Shown here piece by piece: positions 3,443 through 27,025 of a stretch of DNA of 27,798 nt. The notes under the pieces were generated by a model. That model searched no databases. It saw only the letters and a list, made by a program, of their open reading frames with translations, and was not told where the DNA came from. The position numbers and the translations under genes were made by a program. The DNA is from a virus. How positions within the stretch are numbered: the stretch's first letter is position 1; each line of letters opens with the position of its first letter. The stretch is taken from IMG/VR virus record IMGVR_UViG_3300031673_000374, positions 1 to 27,798 of that record; one strand, written 5' to 3'.

Positions 3443-5278
3443 CTAACCGTGATACTGCGGACGGCCAGTATCCTTGATGGGCATGAGGATGTCGGGCCGC
3501 GGCCGCACAATCATCGAGGCCAGGAGACAGAGCAGGATGCTGTGGAACGAGTCGTCCGTCTTGCCTGGTGCCTTCTTGTACTCGGTCATCCGCAGACGTT
3601 CGTTGTACTCACTGAAGATGTTGAGAATGTCAGTGCCGTAGGGCTCAACAAAGTCGTTCCAGCAGGGCAGGTCGATGAGGCGCCGCTTGAGAGCGTTGAA
3701 CACGTCGGTCATCACCTCGGAACGGTGGCACATAAACCGGCGGAGGTTCTCCTCCCAGTACACCTTCTTCTTTTGCCTCGGGTTGTACTGGTACTTCATG
3801 ATCTTCTGCGGACCGTGGCGCCGCATCAGCGTGTCGTTCGGGTGGAAGCCGCCGCCGTAGTCCGTACCCACGACGATGGCACCGAGCTGCGAAATCATCT
3901 GGCTGATGATGTCGAGCTGGCGATCGGGCTCGAGGTCCGGCCCGGTGAATCGGTGGATGTAGAAGATGGTGAAGTTGCCCGTGCCGAGGTAGCCACCAAA
4001 AGTGATGACCGTGTAGCTCCGGCCGGACTCTCCCGTACCCCAGTCGATCCCCCCGAAGACCTGCCGACCTTGAACAAGCGTCCGTACTTCGTCGATGTCT
4101 TGCAGTCGGATGTGGGGCTGGCAGCATGCCTGAAGCTGTCCCCTGGTTAACGGCCGCACGCCCGAGTCGTACGACATGCCCAGCTTCTCGTTGAAGAACG
4201 ACGACCGGCTATACTGCTCCTGCGCCTCCAAGATCTCAGGCCAGTCCACCCACGGCACCATGATCTGTGGGATGCGATAGCCCTCAAAGGTGACGCGCTT
4301 CTCGTTGTCCGGCGTGCGGGGCTGTAGCGCTGCCCACTTGGCTTGAGGATGGCGCGCGTCGATGGTCCTCCGACATCGGTCGCAGATCAGCCCACTCTTG
4401 CCGATGTTGGACTCGTCCAACACGTTCCAGTGCCAGCTAGAAGGATCTTTCGGCGTGCCGTGTCTCTCACAGGGGACTACCCACTCGTTCTGAGTGGAGA
4501 ACTGGGACCAGTAATGCTCGATCGTGTTGTCTTCCGACTTCGGCGTGCCGGAGTAGAGGAACAACTTGAACTTCGAATGGAAGGCGCACTGCTCGATGAT
4601 CGGAATGTTGTCGACCAGGATGTCCTGGAGCTCGTCGATGCAGATGAGGTCAGCGGGGATGCCGCGGACACGGTCAGCCGTCAGGTAAGCGTAACGCAGC
4701 CTGATCTGTGAGAAGTTGATGAACTTCTTGAAGAAGACTGCCTGATTGATTTTGCTCGGGGTGTAGGCGCCCAGCAGCGGTGAGTTCTCTACGACATCCT
4801 TGATGCGATCGCCCGAGAAGACCTTCGCCTGCTCCGCTGAGGGTGCGACGAACAGCGACCGGAAGTTGCTGGTGAGTGCGGAGTAGCACAGCAGCCTGTT
4901 GCCGATCGTAGTGGACTTCTCCACCTGCCTACCGCACTTGAGCAGCACCTTGTCTGACGGCGTGTCGTAGATCCGCCGGAGGTATTCGCGCCCCGTGAAA
5001 TCGAAATCGGAGATGCGGCCAGCCTCCGGAATGCGGATGGCCGTCTCAGCAAATTCAGAGGGGGAGATGTTGTAGGTGGCGTGCTCGAGGGCGCCAAGGC
5101 CGGCGACGTCACCAGGCGTAGGGTCTGGAGGCTCCGCGTCGAACTCGAAGTCGAGCGGGTTGCCGTCGTCATCGTAGTCGAACCACGGCTCTTTGATGGC
5201 ACCATCGACTGACCACAAGAGAGGGATCGTCGCTGCAGTTTTGAGGACAGCTGCCTCTGATAATTGGATCGTCGACAC
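3443..5278 (-). CDS. terL: Terminase large subunit (packaging ATPase/nuclease)
   Basis: A 611-aa protein starting at GTG 5278, with AGGA about 8 nt upstream. The N-terminal ATPase shows a Walker A variant CGRQVEKST (residues 115-123, Lys121), Walker B LICIDE (211-216, Asp215/Glu216) and the coupling motif SGTPKSEDN (243-251). An inserted zinc-knuckle-like element follows (Cys270, His273, Cys299, Cys302), as known from GpA-type large terminases. The C-terminal RNase H-fold nuclease carries GGIDWGTG (Asp412), VVGTDYGGG (Asp473) and KTDDSFHS (Asp575/576), so all three metal-binding acidic positions are present. The motor docks on the portal, pumps DNA into the prohead and cuts the concatemer. 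No small terminase was identified; the two hypothetical genes immediately upstream are candidates by position. The 232-bp upstream gap is unusually long for this genome and holds a candidate RNA. Confidence 0.95.
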   Translation of the reverse strand: MSTIQLSEAAVLKTAATIPLLWSVDGAIKEPWFDYDDDGNPLDFEFDAEPPDPTPGDVAGLGALEHATYNISPSEFAETAIRIPEAGRISDFDFTGREYLRRIYDTPSDKVLLKCGRQVEKSTTIGNRLLCYSALTSNFRSLFVAPSAEQAKVFSGDRIKDVVENSPLLGAYTPSKINQAVFFKKFINFSQIRLRYAYLTADRVRGIPADLICIDELQDILVDNIPIIEQCAFHSKFKLFLYSGTPKSEDNTIEHYWSQFSTQNEWVVPCERHGTPKDPSSWHWNVLDESNIGKSGLICDRCRRTIDARHPQAKWAALQPRTPDNEKRVTFEGYRIPQIMVPWVDWPEILEAQEQYSRSSFFNEKLGMSYDSGVRPLTRGQLQACCQPHIRLQDIDEVRTLVQGRQVFGGIDWGTGESGRSYTVITFGGYLGTGNFTIFYIHRFTGPDLEPDRQLDIISQMISQLGAIVVGTDYGGGFHPNDTLMRRHGPQKIMKYQYNPRQKKKVYWEENLRRFMCHRSEVMTDVFNALKRRLIDLPCWNDFVEPYGTDILNIFSEYNERLRMTEYKKAPGKTDDSFHSILLCLLASMIVRPRPDILMPIKDTGRPQYHG

Positions 5279-5332
5279 TGATCTATCCTACCGCAAGACT
5301 TCCACACCACCAGGTATAAGAAAGATAGTCGG

Positions 5333-5356
5333 GTCAAACGCTAGTGAGTGTTTGAC
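5333..5356. promoter_or_regulatory. Inverted repeat with GTTTGAC arms
   Basis: GTCAAACGCT (5333-5342) and AGTGTTTGAC (5347-5356) pair over 10 positions including one G-T, around a 4-nt loop AGTG. Each arm presents TTTGAC in opposite orientation, and another GTTGAC follows at 5367-5372. It sits between the terminase start and the candidate RNA. It could be an operator, divergent -35 boxes or an RNA hairpin. No -10 box at proper spacing was found for either direction. Confidence 0.45.
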
Positions 5357-5373
5357 AGAAGCCAGCGTTGACT

Positions 5374-5512
5374 GTGGGGCTCATCCCAGGACTCCAATCC
5401 AAGTGCGGAGGAAGCCTGTGGAACTGGAAACGACGTGTTGTACCGCTGGCAAACCAGTCCACCGACAGGGATGAGCCTTACCAATCACTGCCGGCGAAAG
5501 CCGGCATTTTCT
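5374..5512 (+). ncRNA. Candidate structured small RNA next to the terminase gene
   Basis: Bases 5374-5387 pair with 5468-5481 in an unbroken 14-bp helix. Two of the pairs are G-U on the plus strand; on the minus strand they become A-C mismatches, which argues for a plus-strand RNA. Inside are a 9-bp helix with one bulged A (5418-5427 with 5454-5462) and a possible 4-bp helix (5392-5395 with 5407-5410), giving a three-way-junction-like fold. Seven nt after the closing helix comes a GAAA-loop terminator ending in TTTTCT. No convincing coding frame or tRNA shape is present. The RNA would be antisense to the terminase leader. Its 5' end is uncertain: a TATAAG at 5315-5320 could be a -10 box, which would also place the inverted repeat 5333-5356 in the transcript. 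Confidence 0.5.
5489..5512 (+). terminator. Rho-independent terminator with GAAA tetraloop
   Basis: TGCCGGC (5489-5495), GAAA loop, GCCGGCA (5500-5506), then TTTTCT. The GNRA loop and T-tract are both in plus-strand orientation although both flanking genes are on the minus strand, so a plus-strand transcript must be its target. The tail overlaps the end of the minus-strand gene that stops at 5511. Confidence 0.7.
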
Positions 5513-6032
5513 AGCCCCCAACCCTGAGAGCCACACGAGAGAACGGCACCTCGAGCTGCGCGTCCGTCATGGGCACCGGGGTGTTGGGTATTGGTAGCAT
5601 CACCGACCAGCTATCCACCTCTGAGTAGTAGGTGATCTTGTGTGGATGGTACTTGAAGTGGTCGCTGAACACCTCTTCGAGGATGGTCTCGATCTCGGGC
5701 CACCACGGGTGCTCCGCCAGCGTTTGGTTCGCGCGGACTGCGATCTCGGACTGCAGTCGATCGCGCTGCACCTGGTCCACGACTTGGTCGCGCATCTCAT
5801 CCATGTCAGCGTGCGCTTGGTCGTAGATCTCTTTCCGGTCGCGCTTGTAGAAGTGGTAGATGAACAGGTCATCCTTCTCTGTCCACGCCCCCACGACATC
5901 GCCCTTCTCGACCTTGTTCAGCTCGGGGACTCCCTCCTCGAGAGCGCCAGCCATGTCGTTCTGCGGCGTGCCTTTCAGGCCATCCTTCTCATCATCCGTC
6001 ACCCAGAAGGGCTTCTTCTCGATCTCAGCCAT
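5511..6032 (-). CDS. Hypothetical protein upstream of terminase, 173 aa
   Basis: The start is set at ATG 6032 because GGAG lies 6 nt upstream, inside the end of the previous gene; the two genes overlap by 8 nt. Longer in-frame starts would overlap the neighbour far more. The protein is acidic and hydrophilic. The first part (about residues 1-60) is Asp/Glu/Lys-rich, the middle (65-120) is helical with many charged residues (RDRKEIYDQAHADMDEMRDQ), and the C-terminal part (125-173) looks beta-rich (HKITYYSEVDSWSVMLPIPN). No known family was recognised. Being immediately upstream of the large terminase, it could be a packaging or head-tail completion protein; this is inference from position. Confidence 0.75.
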   Translation of the reverse strand: MAEIEKKPFWVTDDEKDGLKGTPQNDMAGALEEGVPELNKVEKGDVVGAWTEKDDLFIYHFYKRDRKEIYDQAHADMDEMRDQVVDQVQRDRLQSEIAVRANQTLAEHPWWPEIETILEEVFSDHFKYHPHKITYYSEVDSWSVMLPIPNTPVPMTDAQLEVPFSRVALRVGG

Positions 6033-6918
6033 CGTCATCTCCATAGTCTTCGGCCACTGGTTCAGCTTCGTCCGTGCCCGCTCCCGACTTGGAGTAGTTG
6101 GGCCCGGCGACCTCTTCAATGGACGGCACCGCGCCGGCGTCGTCCTTACGCAAACGGAACTTGTCGAACGCCGAGAGAACGTCCTTGAGTGCCACGTCAC
6201 TCTGGCGCATCTCGGATTCGGCAGCTTTGATCACGTCCATGTAGTTCTTCATCATCTTCGAGTGAGCCAGCGTTGCTGGTTGCCTCTCGACCTCGAGCAC
6301 CTTTAAGAAGGCCACGTCTCGCATCCGGCGCGCGACGGTCCCAGTGTTGAGGCTGGGCGGCGGGCCCGACAGGCCAGCTACCCAAGGCACCATCGACTGT
6401 GCCGTGTCCGGACTGGCGCGCAGCACAGTGATGCTGTCGTACGCTTCCGGCCTGCCGTCGAGGTAGTTCACCCATTCGTGCATCGCCAGCAGCGACTTGT
6501 TCCAGAAGTAGTGACCGAACGCCTCGAGCCCGGCCACCGTCAGCGAGATGCTGTGGTGCTTGTTCAGGCGAGTAGTAACCTCCTCCACCCGAAGGGGGGA
6601 GAGGAGCAGCTGCTGCACGTTCGCGCGCAGCTGTGGAGTGGTGAGTATCTTGTACGCCTCCTTTACCGAGGCGTGTGGGTACCAGAGGTTGGCGATGCCG
6701 TGCTTCTTCAGGTAGCGCCGCGTCTCCGTGTCCCCTGTCTTGGTCGGCTCCCAGGGATCGGGGAAGGGGTCCATCGTGACCCTGAGTTGGTCGATGTAGC
6801 GACCAGTCAGGCCGTCGAGCCCGTAGTTCTCCAGCAAGCGCAAGATCGCGTTCGTCTCATGCTCCTGCTGCGAGATGAGGAACTTGATGAAGAACTCACT
6901 CGGTGAACGCTCCGCCAT
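6025..6918 (-). CDS. Hypothetical protein, 297 aa, in the terminase operon
   Basis: It starts at ATG 6918, 2 nt after the stop of the 673-aa gene, with only a weak AGGCG as ribosome binding site. Residues 1-220 are helical and rich in Trp/Tyr/Leu; residues 225-297 become acidic and disordered, ending EDYGDDDG. A segment around residues 95-150 (LRVEEVTTRLNKHHSISLTVAGLEAFGHYF onward) could form a helix-turn-helix-like fold, and an FWNK motif is followed by a helix. Position two genes before the large terminase makes a small-terminase or DNA-recognition role conceivable, but no diagnostic motif is visible. A weak resemblance to the protein at 21061-21954 (also 297 aa, also with FWNK) was noted. 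Confidence 0.75.
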   Translation of the reverse strand: MAERSPSEFFIKFLISQQEHETNAILRLLENYGLDGLTGRYIDQLRVTMDPFPDPWEPTKTGDTETRRYLKKHGIANLWYPHASVKEAYKILTTPQLRANVQQLLLSPLRVEEVTTRLNKHHSISLTVAGLEAFGHYFWNKSLLAMHEWVNYLDGRPEAYDSITVLRASPDTAQSMVPWVAGLSGPPPSLNTGTVARRMRDVAFLKVLEVERQPATLAHSKMMKNYMDVIKAAESEMRQSDVALKDVLSAFDKFRLRKDDAGAVPSIEEVAGPNYSKSGAGTDEAEPVAEDYGDDDG

Positions 6919-10235: not shown

Positions 10236-10556
10236 CTACCGGTAGCCCTGCTGCTGCCGCTGGCGCCCGCCGCCGAGCGCTTTGTACCCGCCGTAAGCAG
10301 CTAGGCCGCCTACGCCAGTAGCAGCTGCCATCGAGCCGTAGCCGGACTTTCCGAGCGCCTTCAGGCCGCCCTTCTGCCACAGTCCCTTAATGGCGCCGCC
10401 GTGCCGCTTCAGCGCGGTCCCCGCTCCAACGCGGCGCGCACCCGAAACAGCACTGCCAAGGCCCTTGAAACCCTTCGCCAAGAAGGAACCCACGCCAGCC
10501 TCCTTCTGGATCTCGGCGACTTCCTCGGCAAAGGCGCGCAGCATCTGCTCAGTCAT
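10236..10556 (-). CDS. Small Gly-rich virion-type protein with KEAGVGS signature
   Basis: A 106-aa protein starting at ATG 10556 in a TGATG overlap with the end of the RNA polymerase gene; GAGGAG inside the polymerase C-terminus is its ribosome binding site, so synthesis of the two is linked. Residues 1-20 form an acidic amphipathic helix ending in IQKEAGVGSFLAKGFKG, the signature shared with the protein at 20195-21064. The rest is basic and Gly-rich with a terminal glycine-zipper segment (AAATGVGGLAAYGGYKALGGG) and a QRQQQGYR tail. It has the look of a membrane-active or DNA-packing virion component. Being wedged between polymerase and spike, it may help package or deliver the polymerase; that is inference. 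Confidence 0.7.
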   Translation of the reverse strand: MTEQMLRAFAEEVAEIQKEAGVGSFLAKGFKGLGSAVSGARRVGAGTALKRHGGAIKGLWQKGGLKALGKSGYGSMAAATGVGGLAAYGGYKALGGGRQRQQQGYR

Positions 10557-13500
10557 CAGTACTCTCCTCTTTTCGTGCCCTTGCCTATCTCCGGCCCGAA
10601 GACCACTGGAGGTATCGGGTGCTTACCATGCAGCTTGCTGGTCCACCCCTGCTGAGAAGCACTCACGACCGTGTCCTTGAGTCGTTCGTGGTTCAGCCGA
10701 GCCATCCAGTCCTCCTGCATGTCCAGCGGCAACATATCGACACCCTTCAAAATAGGGCGATGTCGGATCGGCTGCCGGCCTTTGACGGCGTGCCGGTTCA
10801 GGTTAGCAACCCTGGACGTTGGTGCATAGTCACCACGAATGAAATCCTTGTGCCCACCAGGGTCTTCGATCTTGGTCAGGTTGGTCAAGGCTTTCACAAC
10901 CATTTCGGTATTCCGGCGCCGGATGCCGTGCGGACCGTAGATCTTGTGCAGCTCCCCCGACAAGTACCCCTGCACCGGCTCTACCCCTGTGAGGGGGAGC
11001 ATCTCATGGGGATTCACAGGACCGAGCGAGAGCGCGGAGCCTTTGCGTACCTGCATCCCACTCCTGAGCTGCTTGCCCCCGTACATAGGGACGCCCCGAG
11101 CTCTCGGAATGTAGTGCCGCTTGCCCCCCACAAACACGTTGTAACCGCCGGCCGGATCTTGCTGGACCTTGTCGACCTTCCCAGCCATCGTGCTGAGCGT
11201 TGCTGAACCCGGAAGCGTAGTTGGGAAGAGGGTCAGATCTTTGACGCGCTGGAACTCGTCAACGATATCCTCCTTCGATGCCGCGGTGCCGCCCGTGTGA
11301 AAAGCTTTCATCGCCAGCTGTGTGGAGCGTTCGCCCAGGGCCTGGCCAGCCAGGATGCCGACGTTGAGCCCCACCTCTGGCGGCTGGCCGTCTTCCGTCA
11401 AGCCGTAGCACTTCTGACAGACGCCCGGGCCATGCTGACAACGGAGCGGGGAGCGAACCAGCACGCGCCCCACCTTGTTGTTGCGCAGCGAGCTCCGGAT
11501 CTCGGGAGTTACCAACGTGCCGGCCTTGAACAGCTTGCGGCCAGACTTCTGGTCCGTCGCTAGGTGGCGGTCGAGGATGTCCTTCTCGTCCGTAGAAAGG
11601 GCGATGCCCTTGTCCGTCCCACAATCCTGGTCGACGATCGAGTTGTCCATCACCGAGTTCATCACGCGCTTGGATACCCAGCCAGGCTCTGACACCTGCT
11701 GCACCTTCTGGATGATTCCTTTGCGCGCCCCGGACATGTTAGTCCAGTAGTCCGCCACGTCCAGCCCTTCAGCAAACGAGCGCTTCACTGGCTGAGGGAT
11801 GGTCTCGCCCTTGGCGTTGGTGATCAGCATGGGAGCCATCTTGATCTGACGGAGAGCGTCCCGGCCTGGTTTGATACCAGATCGGTGCATCTTCAGCAGG
11901 GCGCTGTCCTTCTCCGGCAGCTCATCCAGTCTGCGGTGCATCTCATCGGTCGCCTTGGCGTAGATCTGAACTGCCTTGGCGTCCTTCTGCGCCTGCGTGC
12001 CTGTCAGCTTTGCGACTGCGCGGTCGGCTGGCGCCATCACCGAATCCCTCATGGCCTTTTCCGGCTTGATGTCCTCCAGCCCGATCGAGAAGGCGGTGTC
12101 GGTGCCCCAATGGTTACCAAGGTCTTTCAGCTTGTTGATCGACTCGCCGTAGTCGTTGCGGTGATCCTTCGCCAGCGCAGTCAGCACCTCGTTCTGACCA
12201 GCCTTGTCCATGGCCCCCTTGCGCTTGAGGAAACCCTTACGCATGGGCTCCGGCAGCGCCCCGGCCACCATGAACCGGCCTGTCGTAGAGCTCAATCCAC
12301 CAACCCTGATCTGGTCAGTGAGCCCTATCTCGCCCTTGCGGGAGGCGCTCTCCACCTCCTTCATGGTCTTGAAAGTCTTGCTGGTCTTCTTCCCTACCTG
12401 CGTGATTCCGTACAGACCCAGCTGCGACTCTAGCGTTGGCTTGTACATCAGGTCGCCAGTCGAGGGACTGAAGAGGTTGCGCGACGGGTGCATCTTGCGC
12501 GCCTCCTCCACGGCCGCCGAGCTGATGGGGACGAATGCTCCCATCGTGTCGCCATCGAAGTCCGCGTTGAAGCCCGAGGTGACCAGTGGGTGGATCTGCA
12601 CCGCCTTGCCCTGGATAATCCGAGGGGTGAACGCTTGCACGTTGTACTTGTGCAGCGCTGGGTCGCGCTTCATCAACAGCGGACGCTCGGACACCACGCG
12701 ATCGAGCGCCCGAGCCACCATCGGGCCGCCGTCCTTGATCATCTGCTGCGCCTGCAACGGCGTAGCACCAGTGAGGTTTCGCAGTTCCCGAACCACGAAT
12801 GGCTTGTATACCTCGGTAGCCGCAGCGCGCGGGAGCCCCACTTCATCAAGACCCAACGAAGGATCGGGGACGATGGTCGACCGCATCGAGAGATCTTGCT
12901 TGCGCTTAACCAGCTTATTCTGGAAGAACCCCTCCTTGGGGGAACCGACTTTCCTACCTGTCTTCCCAGGCTCAGGACGCTTGCCGCTGATGATGTCGAT
13001 GACGCCGCGAAACTCCTTGTTCATGTGGCCGCCGAGCCCTGTCAGCGATCGCAGGCCGTCGTAGACCTCGGCGCGGACCTCGTTCTTCTCCTCGTCCGGG
13101 GCCAGCGGGTTGAAGTTCTTGAGCTGCTTGGCTGACAGGGAGATGCCCTTGTACATGTGGTTGAGGTCGTCAACGTTCAGGTCGCCGTTGGGCAGCTGAG
13201 ACACGGGGCGCATGGACGGCGGCAGAATCGGGACGTTCTGCATCATGTACGCGTCCTTGGCCGACAGCCCCGCATTGTCGAGCGCGCGCAGATACTTGAC
13301 CTTCTTGTTGGCCTGGTCCAGCCGGTTGCCCTTGAGTTTCGGATTCTTCAGCGCCGTGTGGGCTGCCGCGAGCTCCGTCTTGACGTCGATCTTCCCCAGC
13401 ATCGTGCTGAACGCCTTGCCCCCAACGATCCCATTCTCCACGTCGGTGGTGACCTTGCCCGTCTTGGGGTCGATAGCCTTCCGGCCAGCGATAATATCGT

Positions 13501-16500
13501 TGAACTGCGTGCCCGTCACACCCGTCAGTGCTTGAATCGATTTCTCGAAGACGGGGTTGGGGAAGGCCTCAGGCAGCCGCATGTGGCTCCACTTGGTCCC
13601 TTCAACACCTCCCGTCACGGTGGGGTCGAACAGCCCTCCCTTTTCGGCCTTGAGGTCCTTAGCTCGGACCATCTTGCCGCCATCCTTGATCGCCCCGTTG
13701 CTCATCTCCTTCACCTGTGAGTCGGTGAAGGGCACGAGCTGCAGATTGTTGCCTTCCTTCTTGACGTTGACTCCCACGCCATTGAGGTAGCTGGTGAACT
13801 TCTTGTAAGCGAATGTCGGCCGCGGCGCGGGGAGAGTCTCGCCGGCCTGCAGCGCTGCCCAGAACTCATCGTTCTGTCCGGCGTCGCTCTTCAGCGTCTG
13901 CATCTCACGGAGGTTCTCCGTCGCTCCGTGGGCCAGCATAGAATACAACCCCAGGGTACCCAGTGCCTGCGCACCATGAGGGCCACCACCCTTGGGAATC
14001 AGATTGCGATCGTACGCATAGCCGGGGCCGCCGGCGCGAGCTCGCGCCTTCGTCTCAACCTGTTGCTTGAGCTTGAGGATGTGTTGAGGGCCCACCAGCG
14101 CCATGCCCATGGCGCGCCCCGTCTCCGGGTCGAAGACCTCTTCCTTGTCGGTGAGGCCATGAGACTTCAGGTCAGCCGTCACCTGAGCATGCAGGTCCGT
14201 GTTGGGCTGGAAGTTCTTAATATTGTATGGCTTGCCTGTCTTCTCTGCGATCTTGCCAGCCGCAGTCTCAAGCACCTGGCCCAGGTTCACGCGGCCAGGG
14301 ACGCCCGTGGGGTTCAACAAGATGTGCAGCGGGTTGCCGTCCTTGGTATGCGGCATCTCCGAGTCCGGGATGATCTTCGTGATGATCCCCTTGTTCCCGT
14401 GACGCCCCGCAATCTTGTCTCCGATCTCCGCAGCCTTGAGGGTCCTGACGTGGACCGCTGTCTTCTTGCCGCGCTTGACCACCTCTTCGACTACGCCAGG
14501 GTGGTCGGCCTCCCACTTCACGCTCGCGTCAGCGTAGGGCTTGACCAACGACTTGTGCATCTTGGAGAGCTCCATGTCCTCCGCACGGTCGGTCTTCTCT
14601 CGCAGGGCAGCGATCAACGTGTCCCCCGGCATCACCAACTGCCCATGCTTCATCACGCCATCGTCATCTAGCTTGTCGGCCTGCTCTTTCGAGAGCCCGT
14701 CGGGCGTGTACGCTTGGAACTTCTTCTTGTCGAGGATGTGGGTCTTGTCGCGCAGCAAGGTGTTGCGGTGCAGGTGTTCGCTGGAGAGCTTCTTCGATGC
14801 GCTCTCGCTGATCACCACACCGTCCTCAAAGTTGTAGCCCTTGTAGGGCATGTACCCAGTGCGCAGGTTGGTGCCCAGTGCCAGAATCCCGTCCTTCGTG
14901 AAGTTGGTGTCGGCTAGGGTCTGGCCCTTCTTCACCTTGTCGCCGACCTTCACCAGCGCCGTAGAGTGGATGAACCCCTTGTCCGCGTTGAGCGGGAAGT
15001 TGTCGTAGAGCTGGACCTCGCTCTTTTTGCCCTTGGAGTCTTTAACGATCACCCCATCCTTATTGACCGCCACGACCTCACCAGCAGTGTGCGCCCTGTG
15101 AGAAGCAAAACCACCGACGACATTTTCAAAGGTCTTGTTCCCTGCCAAGCTCTGGACTAGCGGCGCCTCGCGGGCAGCGAGAGGGATCGCCTGCTCCATG
15201 TGGCGCCCGGCCATCGTGCTGCGGTTGGGGTGGTCTGCCGCCACGAATGGCACCAGGTTAGAGGCCATCGAGAACATCTGTATTGGATCGCGCATGACAT
15301 ACTGCGCATCCTTCAGAGTACCCTCCGTCATCTCGTTACCAGGAGCTGATAAACGGATCTTGCTCGAGGCTGCGACGGGTTTCCCTTTCTCCCACCGCAC
15401 CTGGTCAGGCAAAGCGAACGTCGAGTTCATCACCTTCTCGGGATTGATCTGCTCGTTCCTCCCCGTCTTGGTGTTGTACATCATGATCTTGACGTCGTGC
15501 CCGTCCTTCTTCACGCCAATCGGCAGGCGTAGAGAGACTCCCGTGCTCTTGCCTTCAGGCGTGTGGATCGGGTCGAGAAATCCCAGGTGCGACGGATCAA
15601 CCAGCTTGGCGTCTTCCGAGATGCCGTGCGCAGACTGGATGCCGCCCTTGCCTGTGATGGTCGTCTTCATCTGACCGCTGATCATCTCGAGCGGGTTGGT
15701 CTGGTCAGGGACGTTGGCCAAGGTGGTGCGGTACATCTCCCGTATCGGACGATTGAATGTGTCCGGACCGATGATCTCGCCCACCTTCGTCCGCCGGTCT
15801 AGCGTATTCTTCACGCGGCGGTGGATGTCCTTGCCACTATCCGCGATGCGCTCGGCGAAAAAGTCCTCCGCGCTGTGCAACTCCTTGAATGGCAGCGCGT
15901 CTCGAGAGTCCGGCTTTGCCTTGCCCTGAGAGATGTGGAGCAGCTTGGTAGCCCCATCCATCAGAGCATTGCCCGTGACGTTCTTGTGCCCGCGGCCCAG
16001 CGTGACCTTGGTAGTATCCTCCCGCAACTTGGAGCCGTTCATCGTGGTCCACAGATGCTCGCGCGCCGTCTCCAAGTCAGCCGGCTGCTCACCCGTCGAC
16101 GCCTTGTAGAACTTGCGCAGAGCCTTCTCGCTGTCCTGCGCGTTGGCTCCAGAGATTTGCTTGCCCCACTTCGCCTCGATCTCCTCTTGCCCCACACCCA
16201 GCTCGCGCATCAGCGGTTGCAGCGGGATGTTGGAGGTCCCGTAGTTCATCGAGAATTCACGGGACTTCGGGTCGAATCCTACCTTGAATCCGCGGCCCTC
16301 CTTCACGTTGTAGTCCGCGCTGAGCTCGCCGTTATCCTTGACCCGTGCGTAGACGCCCTGCTTCAGGCGCCACTGGTTGTCGATCTGGTACTCCTGCCCA
16401 TCGACGATGTGGGAGTAGCGGCGAGTGTGCTTGGGAAGACTGAGGAGCCGGAGGCTTTGCTGGTCGACGACCTTTCCGGAGGTGTTGTCCCTCAGCACAA

Positions 16501-16711
16501 CGTCAGCTTCGACCGGCACAGACCATGTGCGGTTGCCGAGTTTCGCCTTCTTCTGTGATCGGATGTCGTCAATGTGCAGGTCATCGTTGACCTGCACGCC
16601 CTTGAGTTCCAAGGTGTGCTTCTTCCCTACGATCGGGAAAATGCCATCGACTGTCTTAGCCACCCGGTCTTTTAGTACTTTGAACCCTTCCTCTGGAGAC
16701 AGGCGTGCCAT
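10556..16711 (-). CDS. Single-chain beta-beta' DNA-dependent RNA polymerase
   Basis: A 2051-aa protein from ATG 16711, chosen because it overlaps the stop of a 28-codon leader ORF (TGATG) and begins with MARLSPEEGF as the leader does; a GTG at 16732 is also open. Beta motifs come first: a lobe segment (QIDNQWRLKQGVY, about 109-121), the rif-region-like DPIHTPEG (380-387), GYNFED (625-630), GDKIAGRHGNKG (764-775) and LKSD (940-943). Beta' motifs follow: PILPPSMRP (1161-1169), the catalytic NADFDGD (1382-1388; Asp1384, 1386, 1388), GARKG (1661-1665), a zinc site (Cys1697, 1758, 1765, 1768) and QALGERSTQLAMKAFHTGG (1790-1808). The beta' N-terminal Cys4 zinc domain is absent. E. coli beta plus beta' total about 2750 residues, so this is a compact fusion. 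No alpha, omega or sigma gene is visible nearby. Location among virion genes suggests a packaged polymerase. Confidence 0.95.
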   Translation of the reverse strand: MARLSPEEGFKVLKDRVAKTVDGIFPIVGKKHTLELKGVQVNDDLHIDDIRSQKKAKLGNRTWSVPVEADVVLRDNTSGKVVDQQSLRLLSLPKHTRRYSHIVDGQEYQIDNQWRLKQGVYARVKDNGELSADYNVKEGRGFKVGFDPKSREFSMNYGTSNIPLQPLMRELGVGQEEIEAKWGKQISGANAQDSEKALRKFYKASTGEQPADLETAREHLWTTMNGSKLREDTTKVTLGRGHKNVTGNALMDGATKLLHISQGKAKPDSRDALPFKELHSAEDFFAERIADSGKDIHRRVKNTLDRRTKVGEIIGPDTFNRPIREMYRTTLANVPDQTNPLEMISGQMKTTITGKGGIQSAHGISEDAKLVDPSHLGFLDPIHTPEGKSTGVSLRLPIGVKKDGHDVKIMMYNTKTGRNEQINPEKVMNSTFALPDQVRWEKGKPVAASSKIRLSAPGNEMTEGTLKDAQYVMRDPIQMFSMASNLVPFVAADHPNRSTMAGRHMEQAIPLAAREAPLVQSLAGNKTFENVVGGFASHRAHTAGEVVAVNKDGVIVKDSKGKKSEVQLYDNFPLNADKGFIHSTALVKVGDKVKKGQTLADTNFTKDGILALGTNLRTGYMPYKGYNFEDGVVISESASKKLSSEHLHRNTLLRDKTHILDKKKFQAYTPDGLSKEQADKLDDDGVMKHGQLVMPGDTLIAALREKTDRAEDMELSKMHKSLVKPYADASVKWEADHPGVVEEVVKRGKKTAVHVRTLKAAEIGDKIAGRHGNKGIITKIIPDSEMPHTKDGNPLHILLNPTGVPGRVNLGQVLETAAGKIAEKTGKPYNIKNFQPNTDLHAQVTADLKSHGLTDKEEVFDPETGRAMGMALVGPQHILKLKQQVETKARARAGGPGYAYDRNLIPKGGGPHGAQALGTLGLYSMLAHGATENLREMQTLKSDAGQNDEFWAALQAGETLPAPRPTFAYKKFTSYLNGVGVNVKKEGNNLQLVPFTDSQVKEMSNGAIKDGGKMVRAKDLKAEKGGLFDPTVTGGVEGTKWSHMRLPEAFPNPVFEKSIQALTGVTGTQFNDIIAGRKAIDPKTGKVTTDVENGIVGGKAFSTMLGKIDVKTELAAAHTALKNPKLKGNRLDQANKKVKYLRALDNAGLSAKDAYMMQNVPILPPSMRPVSQLPNGDLNVDDLNHMYKGISLSAKQLKNFNPLAPDEEKNEVRAEVYDGLRSLTGLGGHMNKEFRGVIDIISGKRPEPGKTGRKVGSPKEGFFQNKLVKRKQDLSMRSTIVPDPSLGLDEVGLPRAAATEVYKPFVVRELRNLTGATPLQAQQMIKDGGPMVARALDRVVSERPLLMKRDPALHKYNVQAFTPRIIQGKAVQIHPLVTSGFNADFDGDTMGAFVPISSAAVEEARKMHPSRNLFSPSTGDLMYKPTLESQLGLYGITQVGKKTSKTFKTMKEVESASRKGEIGLTDQIRVGGLSSTTGRFMVAGALPEPMRKGFLKRKGAMDKAGQNEVLTALAKDHRNDYGESINKLKDLGNHWGTDTAFSIGLEDIKPEKAMRDSVMAPADRAVAKLTGTQAQKDAKAVQIYAKATDEMHRRLDELPEKDSALLKMHRSGIKPGRDALRQIKMAPMLITNAKGETIPQPVKRSFAEGLDVADYWTNMSGARKGIIQKVQQVSEPGWVSKRVMNSVMDNSIVDQDCGTDKGIALSTDEKDILDRHLATDQKSGRKLFKAGTLVTPEIRSSLRNNKVGRVLVRSPLRCQHGPGVCQKCYGLTEDGQPPEVGLNVGILAGQALGERSTQLAMKAFHTGGTAASKEDIVDEFQRVKDLTLFPTTLPGSATLSTMAGKVDKVQQDPAGGYNVFVGGKRHYIPRARGVPMYGGKQLRSGMQVRKGSALSLGPVNPHEMLPLTGVEPVQGYLSGELHKIYGPHGIRRRNTEMVVKALTNLTKIEDPGGHKDFIRGDYAPTSRVANLNRHAVKGRQPIRHRPILKGVDMLPLDMQEDWMARLNHERLKDTVVSASQQGWTSKLHGKHPIPPVVFGPEIGKGTKRGEY

Positions 16712-16797
16712 CAGTTCACGTGCGTCCAGCACTCAGGCGCTTTTTCATTCCGATCATCGAGAGCATTAAAGCCCTCTTCCGGTGAAAGACGTGCCAT
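16711..16797 (-). CDS. 28-aa leader peptide duplicating the RNA polymerase N-terminus
   Basis: ATG 16797 has AGGAG 7 nt upstream (16809-16805), the best ribosome binding site in this leader. The peptide begins MARLSPEEGFNALDDR and ends at a TGA whose last base is the A of the polymerase ATG (TGATG). The polymerase begins MARLSPEEGFKVLKDR. The first ten residues are identical, yet codons 3-10 all differ at the third base (CGT/CGC, CTT/CTG, TCA/TCT, CCG/CCA, GAA/GAG, GAG/GAA, GGC/GGG, TTT/TTC). Identity continues at L13, D15, R16 and K19 and then stops. This looks like an old tandem duplication in which the peptide sequence, not the DNA, was kept. The likely role is translational coupling or reinitiation for the polymerase, or a copy of a functional N-terminal tag. 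Confidence 0.65.
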   Translation of the reverse strand: MARLSPEEGFNALDDRNEKAPECWTHVN

Positions 16798-24656: not shown

Positions 24657-24730
24657 AGGGCTTACCGCCAGCGGCTAAGGTCCTCGAATTTGATCACTCA
24701 ACACCCACCTTCAACGATTACAAGCACTTG

Positions 24731-24759
24731 GAATTTCCGGCGCCGAGCGCCGGAAATTC
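24731..24759 (+). promoter_or_regulatory. Perfect 13-bp hairpin before the helicase ribosome binding site
   Basis: GAATTTCCGGCGC and GCGCCGGAAATTC are exact reverse complements around a 3-nt CGA. GGGAGGAG, the helicase ribosome binding site, starts at once after the stem. No T-run follows, so it is not a terminator. It could gate translation, protect or process the mRNA, or be a DNA palindrome bound by a dimer. A long gene-free leader is unusual in this compact genome. Confidence 0.7.
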
Positions 24760-24769
24760 GGGAGGAGAG

Positions 24770-27025
24770 ATGACCGACCTTAGCTTCGTGCGGAGAGACC
24801 CCGACAAAGGGTACTTCGGCAGGCAACTCTGGCTGCCGAAGGCACACATCAACACCCGGTCCGTGAAGCGCGGACTGGAGTTCCCTATCATGGATGATGC
24901 GGGGATCAGCTACTTGCAGCTGTGGCGGGATGCGGGGGAACACTTGGTGGTTCCTCGTGAGTTCCTATCCAGGGAGGAGTACCAACATCTCCCGTTCCCC
25001 ATCGTCTCTGTTCAACCGGCATCCTTCCCTCGTGTGGCATTCGTCAGCCGCGTCGAGCTGGACAAGCAGAAGCCGGAGATGAACACACAGCGCGACGCTT
25101 TCGCCGCCATGCTGCATGCGAAAAGCGGCCTGCTCAACCTGGCCTGCGTTGCGGGCGACACGAAGATCAACTTCAACCGAGGCGGCAAGGGATTCTCGAT
25201 GACCATCGAGAGTGCTCGCCGCCGCTTCTATGGAGCTGAGAAGCGGAGCAGCTACAACTGGAACCGGGATATCCCAACCCGTGTTCGATCGAACAAAGAG
25301 GGTGTGATAGGTCTCCATGAGATCGACGACATTCTCTGGAGAGGGAGACGCCTTACACGCACGTTGACGCTTGTCGACGGCAAGCGCCTGCGCCTGACCG
25401 ATGACCACAAGGTGCTGACAGTGCGTGGCTGGGTCGAGCTCCGACACCTCAGCGTCGGCGACGAAGTCATCACAGACGGAAAGCGAGACGCCTCAGAACG
25501 AAAGCCGAAGCAGGTCTACAAACGTCTGAGCTGGTATCCAGCGCATCCTCATGTACGATCACAGAAGCGGAAAGGCCGTAAGGCGCTCTGCTATGCGATC
25601 GAGGAACACCGAGCGGTTGCTGAAGCTGCTCTGAATGGTTTGTCGCTCGAGCAGTTCAGAGAGCGATGCCGCTCAGGAGACGTGGCGGGTCTGCGGTTCA
25701 TCGACCCCAGCCGGTACCACGTCCACCACATCGACGAGGACATCCAGAACAACGACCCGTCGAACCTTGAGGTGCTACCTCATTCTGGTCACCTCGACAA
25801 GCACCGTCCCGGTTCCAAAGCATTTGGTTATGGGATTCCGACGCCGGTGCGGGTCAAGGAGATCAAGGAGGGACGCTACGAAGATGTCTATGACATCGTC
25901 TGCAAAGACCCTTACCGCAACTTCGTGGCAAACGGGATAGTGATTCACAACTGCGGTAAGGGCAAGACAATCTTGGCGCTGCACTACGTCGCACACAAGC
26001 AGGTCCCCGCGCTGGTGATAGTCAACAACACGACGTTGATCAACCAGTGGCGCTCACGCATCGAGCAGTTCCTTGACGTACCCGGCGGGATTGGCGTTAT
26101 CCAAGGCCCGCCGGAGAAGTGGGACTGGGAAGGCCGCGGCATTGTGCTGGCCATGATCCACACACTATCGCTGCGCGCCAGCGAAGTTCCGCCAGGGATG
26201 GACAGATACTTTGGCCTCGTCATCTACGACGAGGTCCACCACCTGTCCGCCCCGCTGTTCGTCCAGACCGCTCCAATGTTCTACGGAGAGCGGCAGGGAC
26301 TTACCGCAACCACAGATAGGGAAGACGGCCTCGAGCCGATCTACCAATACCACGTTGGGGACGTCTACCACCGGGACCTTTCCCAGGAGATGAAGCCACG
26401 AATCTACTTTCAGCAATGTCCGGTCAGGCTAGACCCACATGACCCTGCTGTGGTGGAAGGTATCTACGACGCTCGAGGACGCATCAGCGTTCCCAAGCTC
26501 AGGACATATCTTGGGACTCTTCCCGAGTGCAACGAGTTCATAGCCGACAAGCTACGAAAGCCTCTTCTTGCGGGGCGCAAAATCCTGGCATTGAGCCACA
26601 GTGTTGATCAGCTACGAGCCCTCAACGAGATGTTCGAGGACTCAGGACTGTGCACTGGAAAGGAGAAGCCCGCCGCAAGAATCCAAACCCTTCGTGAGAA
26701 AAATCTTACCTTCGGAACCTTGCAGTTGGTGAAGGAGGCTCTGGACGAAGCGACGTTGGACACCCTCTTCTTCCTCACGCCGTTTGGTAGCGCCCATATC
26801 GATGACGGGGGCGCCAACACACTGCAGCAGGGGATGGGGCGCATACAACGCCATCTGGACGACAAGCGAACCCCCGTGGTCGTGATCATCGACCACATCT
26901 ACATCCCGAAGTTCCACCGCATGTGCAGCCACCTCAAGCGGCTCATTCATAATTGGCCGGCCGATCAAGGTGGGCCACTCGACTACAAGATTCTCAGACC
27001 CTATACCGAGGAGGAAGTGAAGTGA
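24770..27025 (+). CDS. SSL2/XPB-like SF2 helicase interrupted by an intein
   Basis: ATG 24770 follows GGAGGAG; an upstream in-frame ATG (24728) would include the hairpin and is rejected. The precursor is 751 aa. Residues 126-394 are an intein; the spliced helicase would be 482 aa. After splicing the P-loop reads ACGKGKT (A125 joined to C395). Further SF2 motifs: a Ia-like region (ALVIVNNTTLINQW, 414-427), DEVH Walker B (487-490), motif III TAT (512-514), and motif VI QGMGRIQR (687-694). Layout and spacing resemble SSL2/XPB/UvsW-type DNA helicases. The N-terminal 100 residues are a phage-type substrate-binding domain. It may act in replication, recombination or repair. The downstream genes overlap by GTGA, including a uracil-DNA glycosylase, which favours a DNA-repair or replication operon. 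Confidence 0.9.
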   Translation: MTDLSFVRRDPDKGYFGRQLWLPKAHINTRSVKRGLEFPIMDDAGISYLQLWRDAGEHLVVPREFLSREEYQHLPFPIVSVQPASFPRVAFVSRVELDKQKPEMNTQRDAFAAMLHAKSGLLNLACVAGDTKINFNRGGKGFSMTIESARRRFYGAEKRSSYNWNRDIPTRVRSNKEGVIGLHEIDDILWRGRRLTRTLTLVDGKRLRLTDDHKVLTVRGWVELRHLSVGDEVITDGKRDASERKPKQVYKRLSWYPAHPHVRSQKRKGRKALCYAIEEHRAVAEAALNGLSLEQFRERCRSGDVAGLRFIDPSRYHVHHIDEDIQNNDPSNLEVLPHSGHLDKHRPGSKAFGYGIPTPVRVKEIKEGRYEDVYDIVCKDPYRNFVANGIVIHNCGKGKTILALHYVAHKQVPALVIVNNTTLINQWRSRIEQFLDVPGGIGVIQGPPEKWDWEGRGIVLAMIHTLSLRASEVPPGMDRYFGLVIYDEVHHLSAPLFVQTAPMFYGERQGLTATTDREDGLEPIYQYHVGDVYHRDLSQEMKPRIYFQQCPVRLDPHDPAVVEGIYDARGRISVPKLRTYLGTLPECNEFIADKLRKPLLAGRKILALSHSVDQLRALNEMFEDSGLCTGKEKPAARIQTLREKNLTFGTLQLVKEALDEATLDTLFFLTPFGSAHIDDGGANTLQQGMGRIQRHLDDKRTPVVVIIDHIYIPKFHRMCSHLKRLIHNWPADQGGPLDYKILRPYTEEEVK
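25145..25951 (+). mobile_element. HNH-endonuclease intein in the helicase P-loop
   Basis: A 269-aa in-frame insert begins with Cys (CVAGDTKI, block A), has block B (LTDDHKVLT with the Thr and His of splicing, residues 210-218), block F (VYDIVCKDPYRNFVANG, 373-389) and ends IVIHN before Cys395 (block G). All splicing residues are present: Cys1, block-B His, penultimate His, terminal Asn and a +1 Cys. Between blocks B and F lies an HNH module (YHVHHIDEDIQNND, 316-329, then SNLEVLPHSGHLDKH), a compact homing endonuclease in place of the more usual LAGLIDADG. Insertion in the ATP-binding loop means the helicase is inactive until splicing and the intein cannot be imprecisely lost. Bounds are inferred from motif positions and the restored P-loop. 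Confidence 0.93.

Follow-up and report, generated by a model that had tools for sequence, protein, structure and literature searches.

What is encoded between the terminase gene of a large virus and its small neighbor, when both of these genes are read in the same direction? The window analyzed here is the whole of a 27.8-kb virus record in which nearly all of the large genes are read leftwards, including one with a weak match to portal. A gap at positions 5279-5510 separates the terminase gene TerL from a small gene that we call p229. The first-pass annotation had placed a candidate structured RNA, read on the plus strand, in this gap between two minus-strand genes. The gap is as it was described, and from sequence comparisons we think it very likely that it holds a stand-alone gene for a structured non-coding RNA. 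Our best reading is that this is a new family of phage non-coding RNA. The gene, its strand, its start and its fold are supported by computation; from these we infer its transcription, a bound partner and a biological role. The two neighbors and the parts of the predicted transcription unit are as follows.

3443-5278, minus strand: TerL, matching phrog_675 (E 2.9e-56), the conserved neighbor at one side of the RNA
5511-6032, minus strand: p229, a small protein with no family assigned, the conserved neighbor at the other side (its open reading frame spans 5511-6200; the true start is probably 6032)
~5291-5512, plus strand: predicted complete transcription unit, with promoter, hairpins and end hairpin
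5291-5320, plus strand: bipartite promoter, with a -35-like CCGCAA (5291-5296, GCAA at 5293-5296) and an extended -10 box, GGTATAAG (5313-5320)
5327-5512, plus strand: proposed RNA of ~186 nt, from the predicted start to the end of the terminator tail (fold z -4.5)
5333-5356, plus strand: 5' hairpin HP1, 9 bp, GTCAAACGC with GTGTTTGAC, from sequence and fold
5361-5367, plus strand: putative pseudoknot strand 1, GCCAGCG, in the linker, with 7 perfect pairs to 5444-5450
5374-5387, plus strand: 5' strand of the 14-bp closing helix of HP2, GTGGGGCTCATCCC, from sequence and fold
5444-5450, plus strand: putative pseudoknot strand 2, CGCTGGC, within the apical loop of HP2
5468-5481, plus strand: 3' strand of the same helix, GGGATGAGCCTTAC, from sequence and fold
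5489-5512, plus strand: HP3, intrinsic-terminator-like, TGCCGGC-GAAA-GCCGGCA (5489-5506) followed by the tail TTTTCTA

Two other genes in the window have unusual domain content. Positions 10556-16732 encode a protein of 2058 aa with Rpb2 and Rpb1 domains, that is, a fused beta/beta' (two-subunit) RNA polymerase, which is 31% identical over 97% to that of Vibrio phage D69. A helicase-like open reading frame (24728-27025) carries an intein splicing domain and an HNH endonuclease domain.

The strand of the RNA follows from its promoter. A PWM built from 60 sites in relatives scored the window promoter at 24.1, compared to 13.7 for the best shuffled sequence. GGTATAAG was found 93 times in six large relatives, versus 14 times for the reversed control, and in five of the six it was mostly on the strand opposite TerL. 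Most of these sites have a ribosome-binding site and a small gene downstream. In 59 aligned promoter sites, A was present at -18 and -17 (88% and 83%), followed by the box, a T at offset 13 (75%) and then a purine (offset 14). In the window, the PWM picked out four strong sites and no more, all of them on the plus strand. The site at 5313 is alone in having no gene behind it; protein genes equipped with ribosome-binding sites follow the other three (starts ~2985, 16942 and 24264):

2918, plus strand: another promoter of this type, GAGATAAG, ahead of a small protein gene that is read on the plus strand amid leftward late genes
16876, plus strand: the same, GTTATAAG
24209, plus strand: the same, GGGATAAG

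Because genes downstream of the motif are read in the direction of the motif, both elsewhere and in the window, the plus strand is fixed and the start is predicted at 5327. We rejected GGTATAAG as a minus-strand promoter for TerL on the same grounds. On the motif evidence, the RNA has a promoter of its own, as befits a non-coding RNA gene, and the promoter type is that used for the small plus-strand genes of the phage, which are probably early or middle genes. The RNA start is 49 bases upstream of the TerL start codon and there is no overlap with the TerL start region.

The predicted fold is better than expected by chance. Folding 5330-5515 on the plus strand gave -77 kcal/mol (z -3.8), and none of 200 shuffles was as good; the minus strand of this segment had a z of -4.6. 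From the predicted start at 5327, z was -4.5 for the plus strand and -3.15 for the minus strand. Random 180-nt windows of related genomes had a mean z of -0.5, and 1 of 150 was at or below -4.5. The 14-bp closing helix described in the first-pass annotation is present exactly, and has two G-U pairs when read on the plus strand. Its terminator-like hairpin with a GNRA loop is also there (the loop is GAAA, and TTTTCT follows). The extent given for the RNA, 5374-5512, was correct for the end and the helices, but began too late, missing the promoter, the start at ~5327 and HP1. Similarly, inner helices are present, but a pseudoknot gives a better description of this inner part. We considered HP1 as a general hairpin of early leaders and rejected this, since early leaders had a mean z of -0.07.

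The RNA does not appear to encode a peptide. No shared or conserved peptide was found among 25 RNAs (the window RNA and its relatives), and 11 of the 25 had no open reading frame of at least 8 codons bearing a ribosome-binding site. An 18-codon GGAGG-GTG frame inside the window RNA was rejected as coding because it is not conserved.

We found that the same arrangement is kept in relatives. Searching viral contigs with TerL gave 53 loci, and a profile search yielded 80, with many contigs common to the two. These relatives are metagenomic, and structures were compared across groups by architecture, without column alignment. About 25 distinct relatives keep the promoter, the hairpins and the end hairpin between p229 and TerL, with sequences that hardly align. 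In relatives whose TerL is ~66-77% identical, the gap is ~150-280 bases (656 in L034). In nearly all, a box of the GGTATAAG type lies 22-38 bases from the start of TerL and is followed by two hairpins, the second of them long, and then by a GC-rich hairpin that ends at the p229 stop codon and in most relatives has a GNRA-type loop. The TATAAG core is present in every p229-TerL gap except that of L009, where p229 and TerL abut with no RNA between them. That is, the RNA is not strictly essential there. Nearly all relatives have a hairpin of differing sequence at the HP1 position, and CCGGC-tetraloop-GCCGG recurs at the HP3 position. Read on the plus strand, the tetraloops are often GNRA or UUCG. 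When the 25 RNAs were folded from the predicted start, the mean z was -5.07 for the plus strand compared to -3.82 for the minus strand, with the plus strand better in 21 of 25; four short forms (L002, L007, L013 and L017) folded weakly, with z above -2. A nucleotide search for the gap feature in cultured phages gave no match. In some of the TerL loci the gene itself is interrupted near residue 116, 205 or 414 by insertions of ~1-1.3 kb, putative introns or inteins (L025-L028, L031-L034, L036, L039, L041 and L052-L054).

The end of the RNA looks different in the window and in most relatives. The T-tract in the window (TTTTCT) points to the plus strand, as the first-pass annotation had argued, but in most relatives the end hairpin is not followed by a true T-tract. 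Tails of the type TTTCT(C)TAGCC follow hairpins elsewhere in the genomes of relatives and are likewise found at the end of the RNA. TTTCTYTAGCC recurs after hairpins in two large relatives, G006 (L148-L157) and G004 (L162-L168), with a bias in G006 towards the strand that carries the small genes. It is possible that a hairpin followed by TTTCTYTAGCC is a phage-style terminator signature. At ~12418-12560 of L156 (G006:172418) there is a promoter with no gene close behind it, and a strong hairpin followed by TTTCTTTTGCCC; this unit is possibly a second non-coding RNA.

The linker at 5361-5367 and the loop at 5444-5450 likely form a pseudoknot in the window RNA, judging from complementarity. Freeing the two strands would cost ~3 kcal/mol, compared to a helix worth ~-12.6. 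The corresponding strands are GCCAGC/GCTGGC in L002 and GCCGGC/GCCGGC in L004, L005 and L031, an A-U/G-C change with pairing kept. In group A2, GCCATCACA and TGTGGTGGC are complementary and involve the HP1 loop. The partners were spotted by eye before testing; the permutation test gave p 0.055 for the window alone and a Fisher combined p of 4e-6 over 24 RNAs, a value inflated by kin sequences. In several members no such pseudoknot was found.

Evidence for compensatory change comes mainly from a longer form of the RNA. This form, ~370 nt, is at the same place in six loci (L079, L080, L081, L082, L089 and L090) whose TerL is 59-63% identical. It has a conserved motif upstream of TerL, TCTAGTTG-hairpin-CATCCGAGTC, and a GC hairpin near its end, with a UUCG loop in several. 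Profile comparison assigns the gene on its far side to the p229 family (hhalign 95.5%, E 1.5e-8). Since p229 flanks both forms, a single arrangement, p229 - RNA - TerL, covers the short and the long. In a three-sequence alignment of the long form (A7), 26 of 102 pairs were doubly compensated, and the consensus energy had an alifold z of -9.75 relative to column shuffles; the minus strand had a z of -9.99, so energy alone does not separate the strands. A scan of viral contigs for TCTAGYTG..CATCCGARTC gave 47 matches; the promoter box was present only in long-form relatives at the RNA locus, and the rest looked like chance. Short-form alignments were less informative. The consensus of group A2 had an alifold z of -7.2, but pair counting within its six sequences was weak and not significant (54 of 500 shuffles were as good), and the MAFFT alignments A3 and A4 were too divergent for use, including for sequence-based covariation testing. 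Thus, structure is kept by compensatory change in the long form, with weak evidence from A2 alone. Missing covariation, or stems poorly conserved in relatives, had been named in advance as arguing against an RNA; we looked for both and found neither to be the case. Together, the genome-wide promoter motif, the architecture in ~25 relatives and the covariation of the long form strongly support the proposal of a plus-strand structured RNA beside the terminase.

The first-pass annotation knew of no described RNA of this shape, which agrees with our searches: nothing in the window or its relatives exceeded the curated Rfam thresholds, and permissive scans gave only chance matches. Some known RNAs have points in common with it. 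6S RNA and other regulators of RNA polymerase are long imperfect hairpins that resemble the window RNA, and this phage also encodes a fused multisubunit RNA polymerase; in contrast to these regulators, the window RNA has no Rfam match. RNAI and CopA, antisense RNAs of the plasmid type, are short multi-hairpin RNAs opposite another transcript. The window RNA differs from them in that it does not overlap the start region of the sense gene and has a putative pseudoknot with a compensatory change. GOLLD and ROOL are large structured non-coding RNAs, bacterial and phage-associated, and they form RNA-RNA complexes (PMC12286853). Neither had an Rfam match in the window or relatives. Both are much larger than the p229-TerL RNA.

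We suggest that a promoter of the small-gene type would drive plus-strand transcription of the RNA, in the direction opposite to that of the late genes. The product would be an RNA of ~186 nt with a 5' hairpin, a long branched hairpin and a terminator hairpin, in which the apical loop would pair back with the linker. Selection would retain the fold and not the letters. Because the fold is kept while the letters change, the RNA is most likely a folded molecule working in trans, and we consider it somewhat probable that it acts by binding a phage or host protein as an RNP. A regulatory role through pairing seems doubtful. The RNA is the full complement of the intergenic region on the late strand, and its promoter opposes the late genes, so it might pair with a late transcript through the p229-TerL junction, or its transcription might collide with that of the late genes, holding TerL down early. 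However, perfect antisense pairing needs neither compensatory changes nor a pseudoknot, and an RNA beginning 49 bases upstream of TerL leaves the TerL ribosome-binding site free. It is very improbable that the region is a DNA element, a packaging or replication site whose palindromes merely resemble RNA stems. The region does adjoin TerL, and the folding energy of the long form is similar on both strands, but the dedicated one-direction promoter, the GNRA and UUCG loops on the plus strand, the preference for that strand in 21 of 25 RNAs and the broad size range (122 to ~370 nt) all argue for an RNA.

Two other possibilities concern what the RNA might act on. It could assemble with the terminase or portal like the pRNA of phi29, with the linker-loop pairing formed within or between molecules; partners that are palindromic, such as UGCCGGCA in L031, might pair from one molecule to another. 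Both the short and the long form of the RNA stand between TerL and a p229-family gene and, like phi29 pRNA (RF00044), a small phage non-coding RNA, have a conserved fold and a variable sequence; the complementary loops that co-vary in pRNA (PMC12670572) may have a counterpart in the 7-bp linker-loop match. On the other hand, RF00044 gave no match up to E 10 in 5279-5515, the phages are different, and the RNA is of another shape, with three hairpins in a row and contacts of 6-9 bp compared to the three-way junction and short loop contacts of pRNA. In addition, the promoter is of the small-gene class, and no RNA is annotated in the record ends upstream of TerL of cultured relatives whose TerL is related (Arash and Vibrio D69). 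We regard a packaging RNA of this type as unlikely. It is also possible, but tentative, that the RNA takes part in host takeover as an RNA counterpart of the small early proteins, with a protein or RNA of the host as its target, for which it might be a decoy. It shares its promoter class with the small plus-strand genes. Moreover, in more distant relatives the promoter box, divergently placed as here, stands before a protein gene: a diverse protein of 210-290 aa occupies the slot of the RNA, under the same promoter, in L098, L099, L102, L104, L119, L121 and L135, and a profile of this protein finds nothing in four RNA-bearing genomes (one covered in part). Against this reading, the RNA occupies a single position in almost every member of the clade, unlike typical dispensable cargo. 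The slot protein was also considered as a small terminase; this was not supported, with no family match and no fold match for a model of moderate quality (pLDDT 76), and a search with a single member found only itself.

It is rare for a phage non-coding RNA to be fixed in a lineage, and a job is known for few such RNAs. It is conceivable, though quite unlikely, that this one would be a structural RNA belonging to the core of a large-phage lineage: a packaging or virion-assembly RNA of a second type, unrelated to phi29 pRNA, at a place where distant relatives carry a protein gene with the same promoter. The RNA is defined well enough, by its promoter, start, fold, neighbors and relatives, for direct testing, and whether it is linked to packaging or to late-gene control is, given its constant position next to the terminase, a clear question that can be answered.
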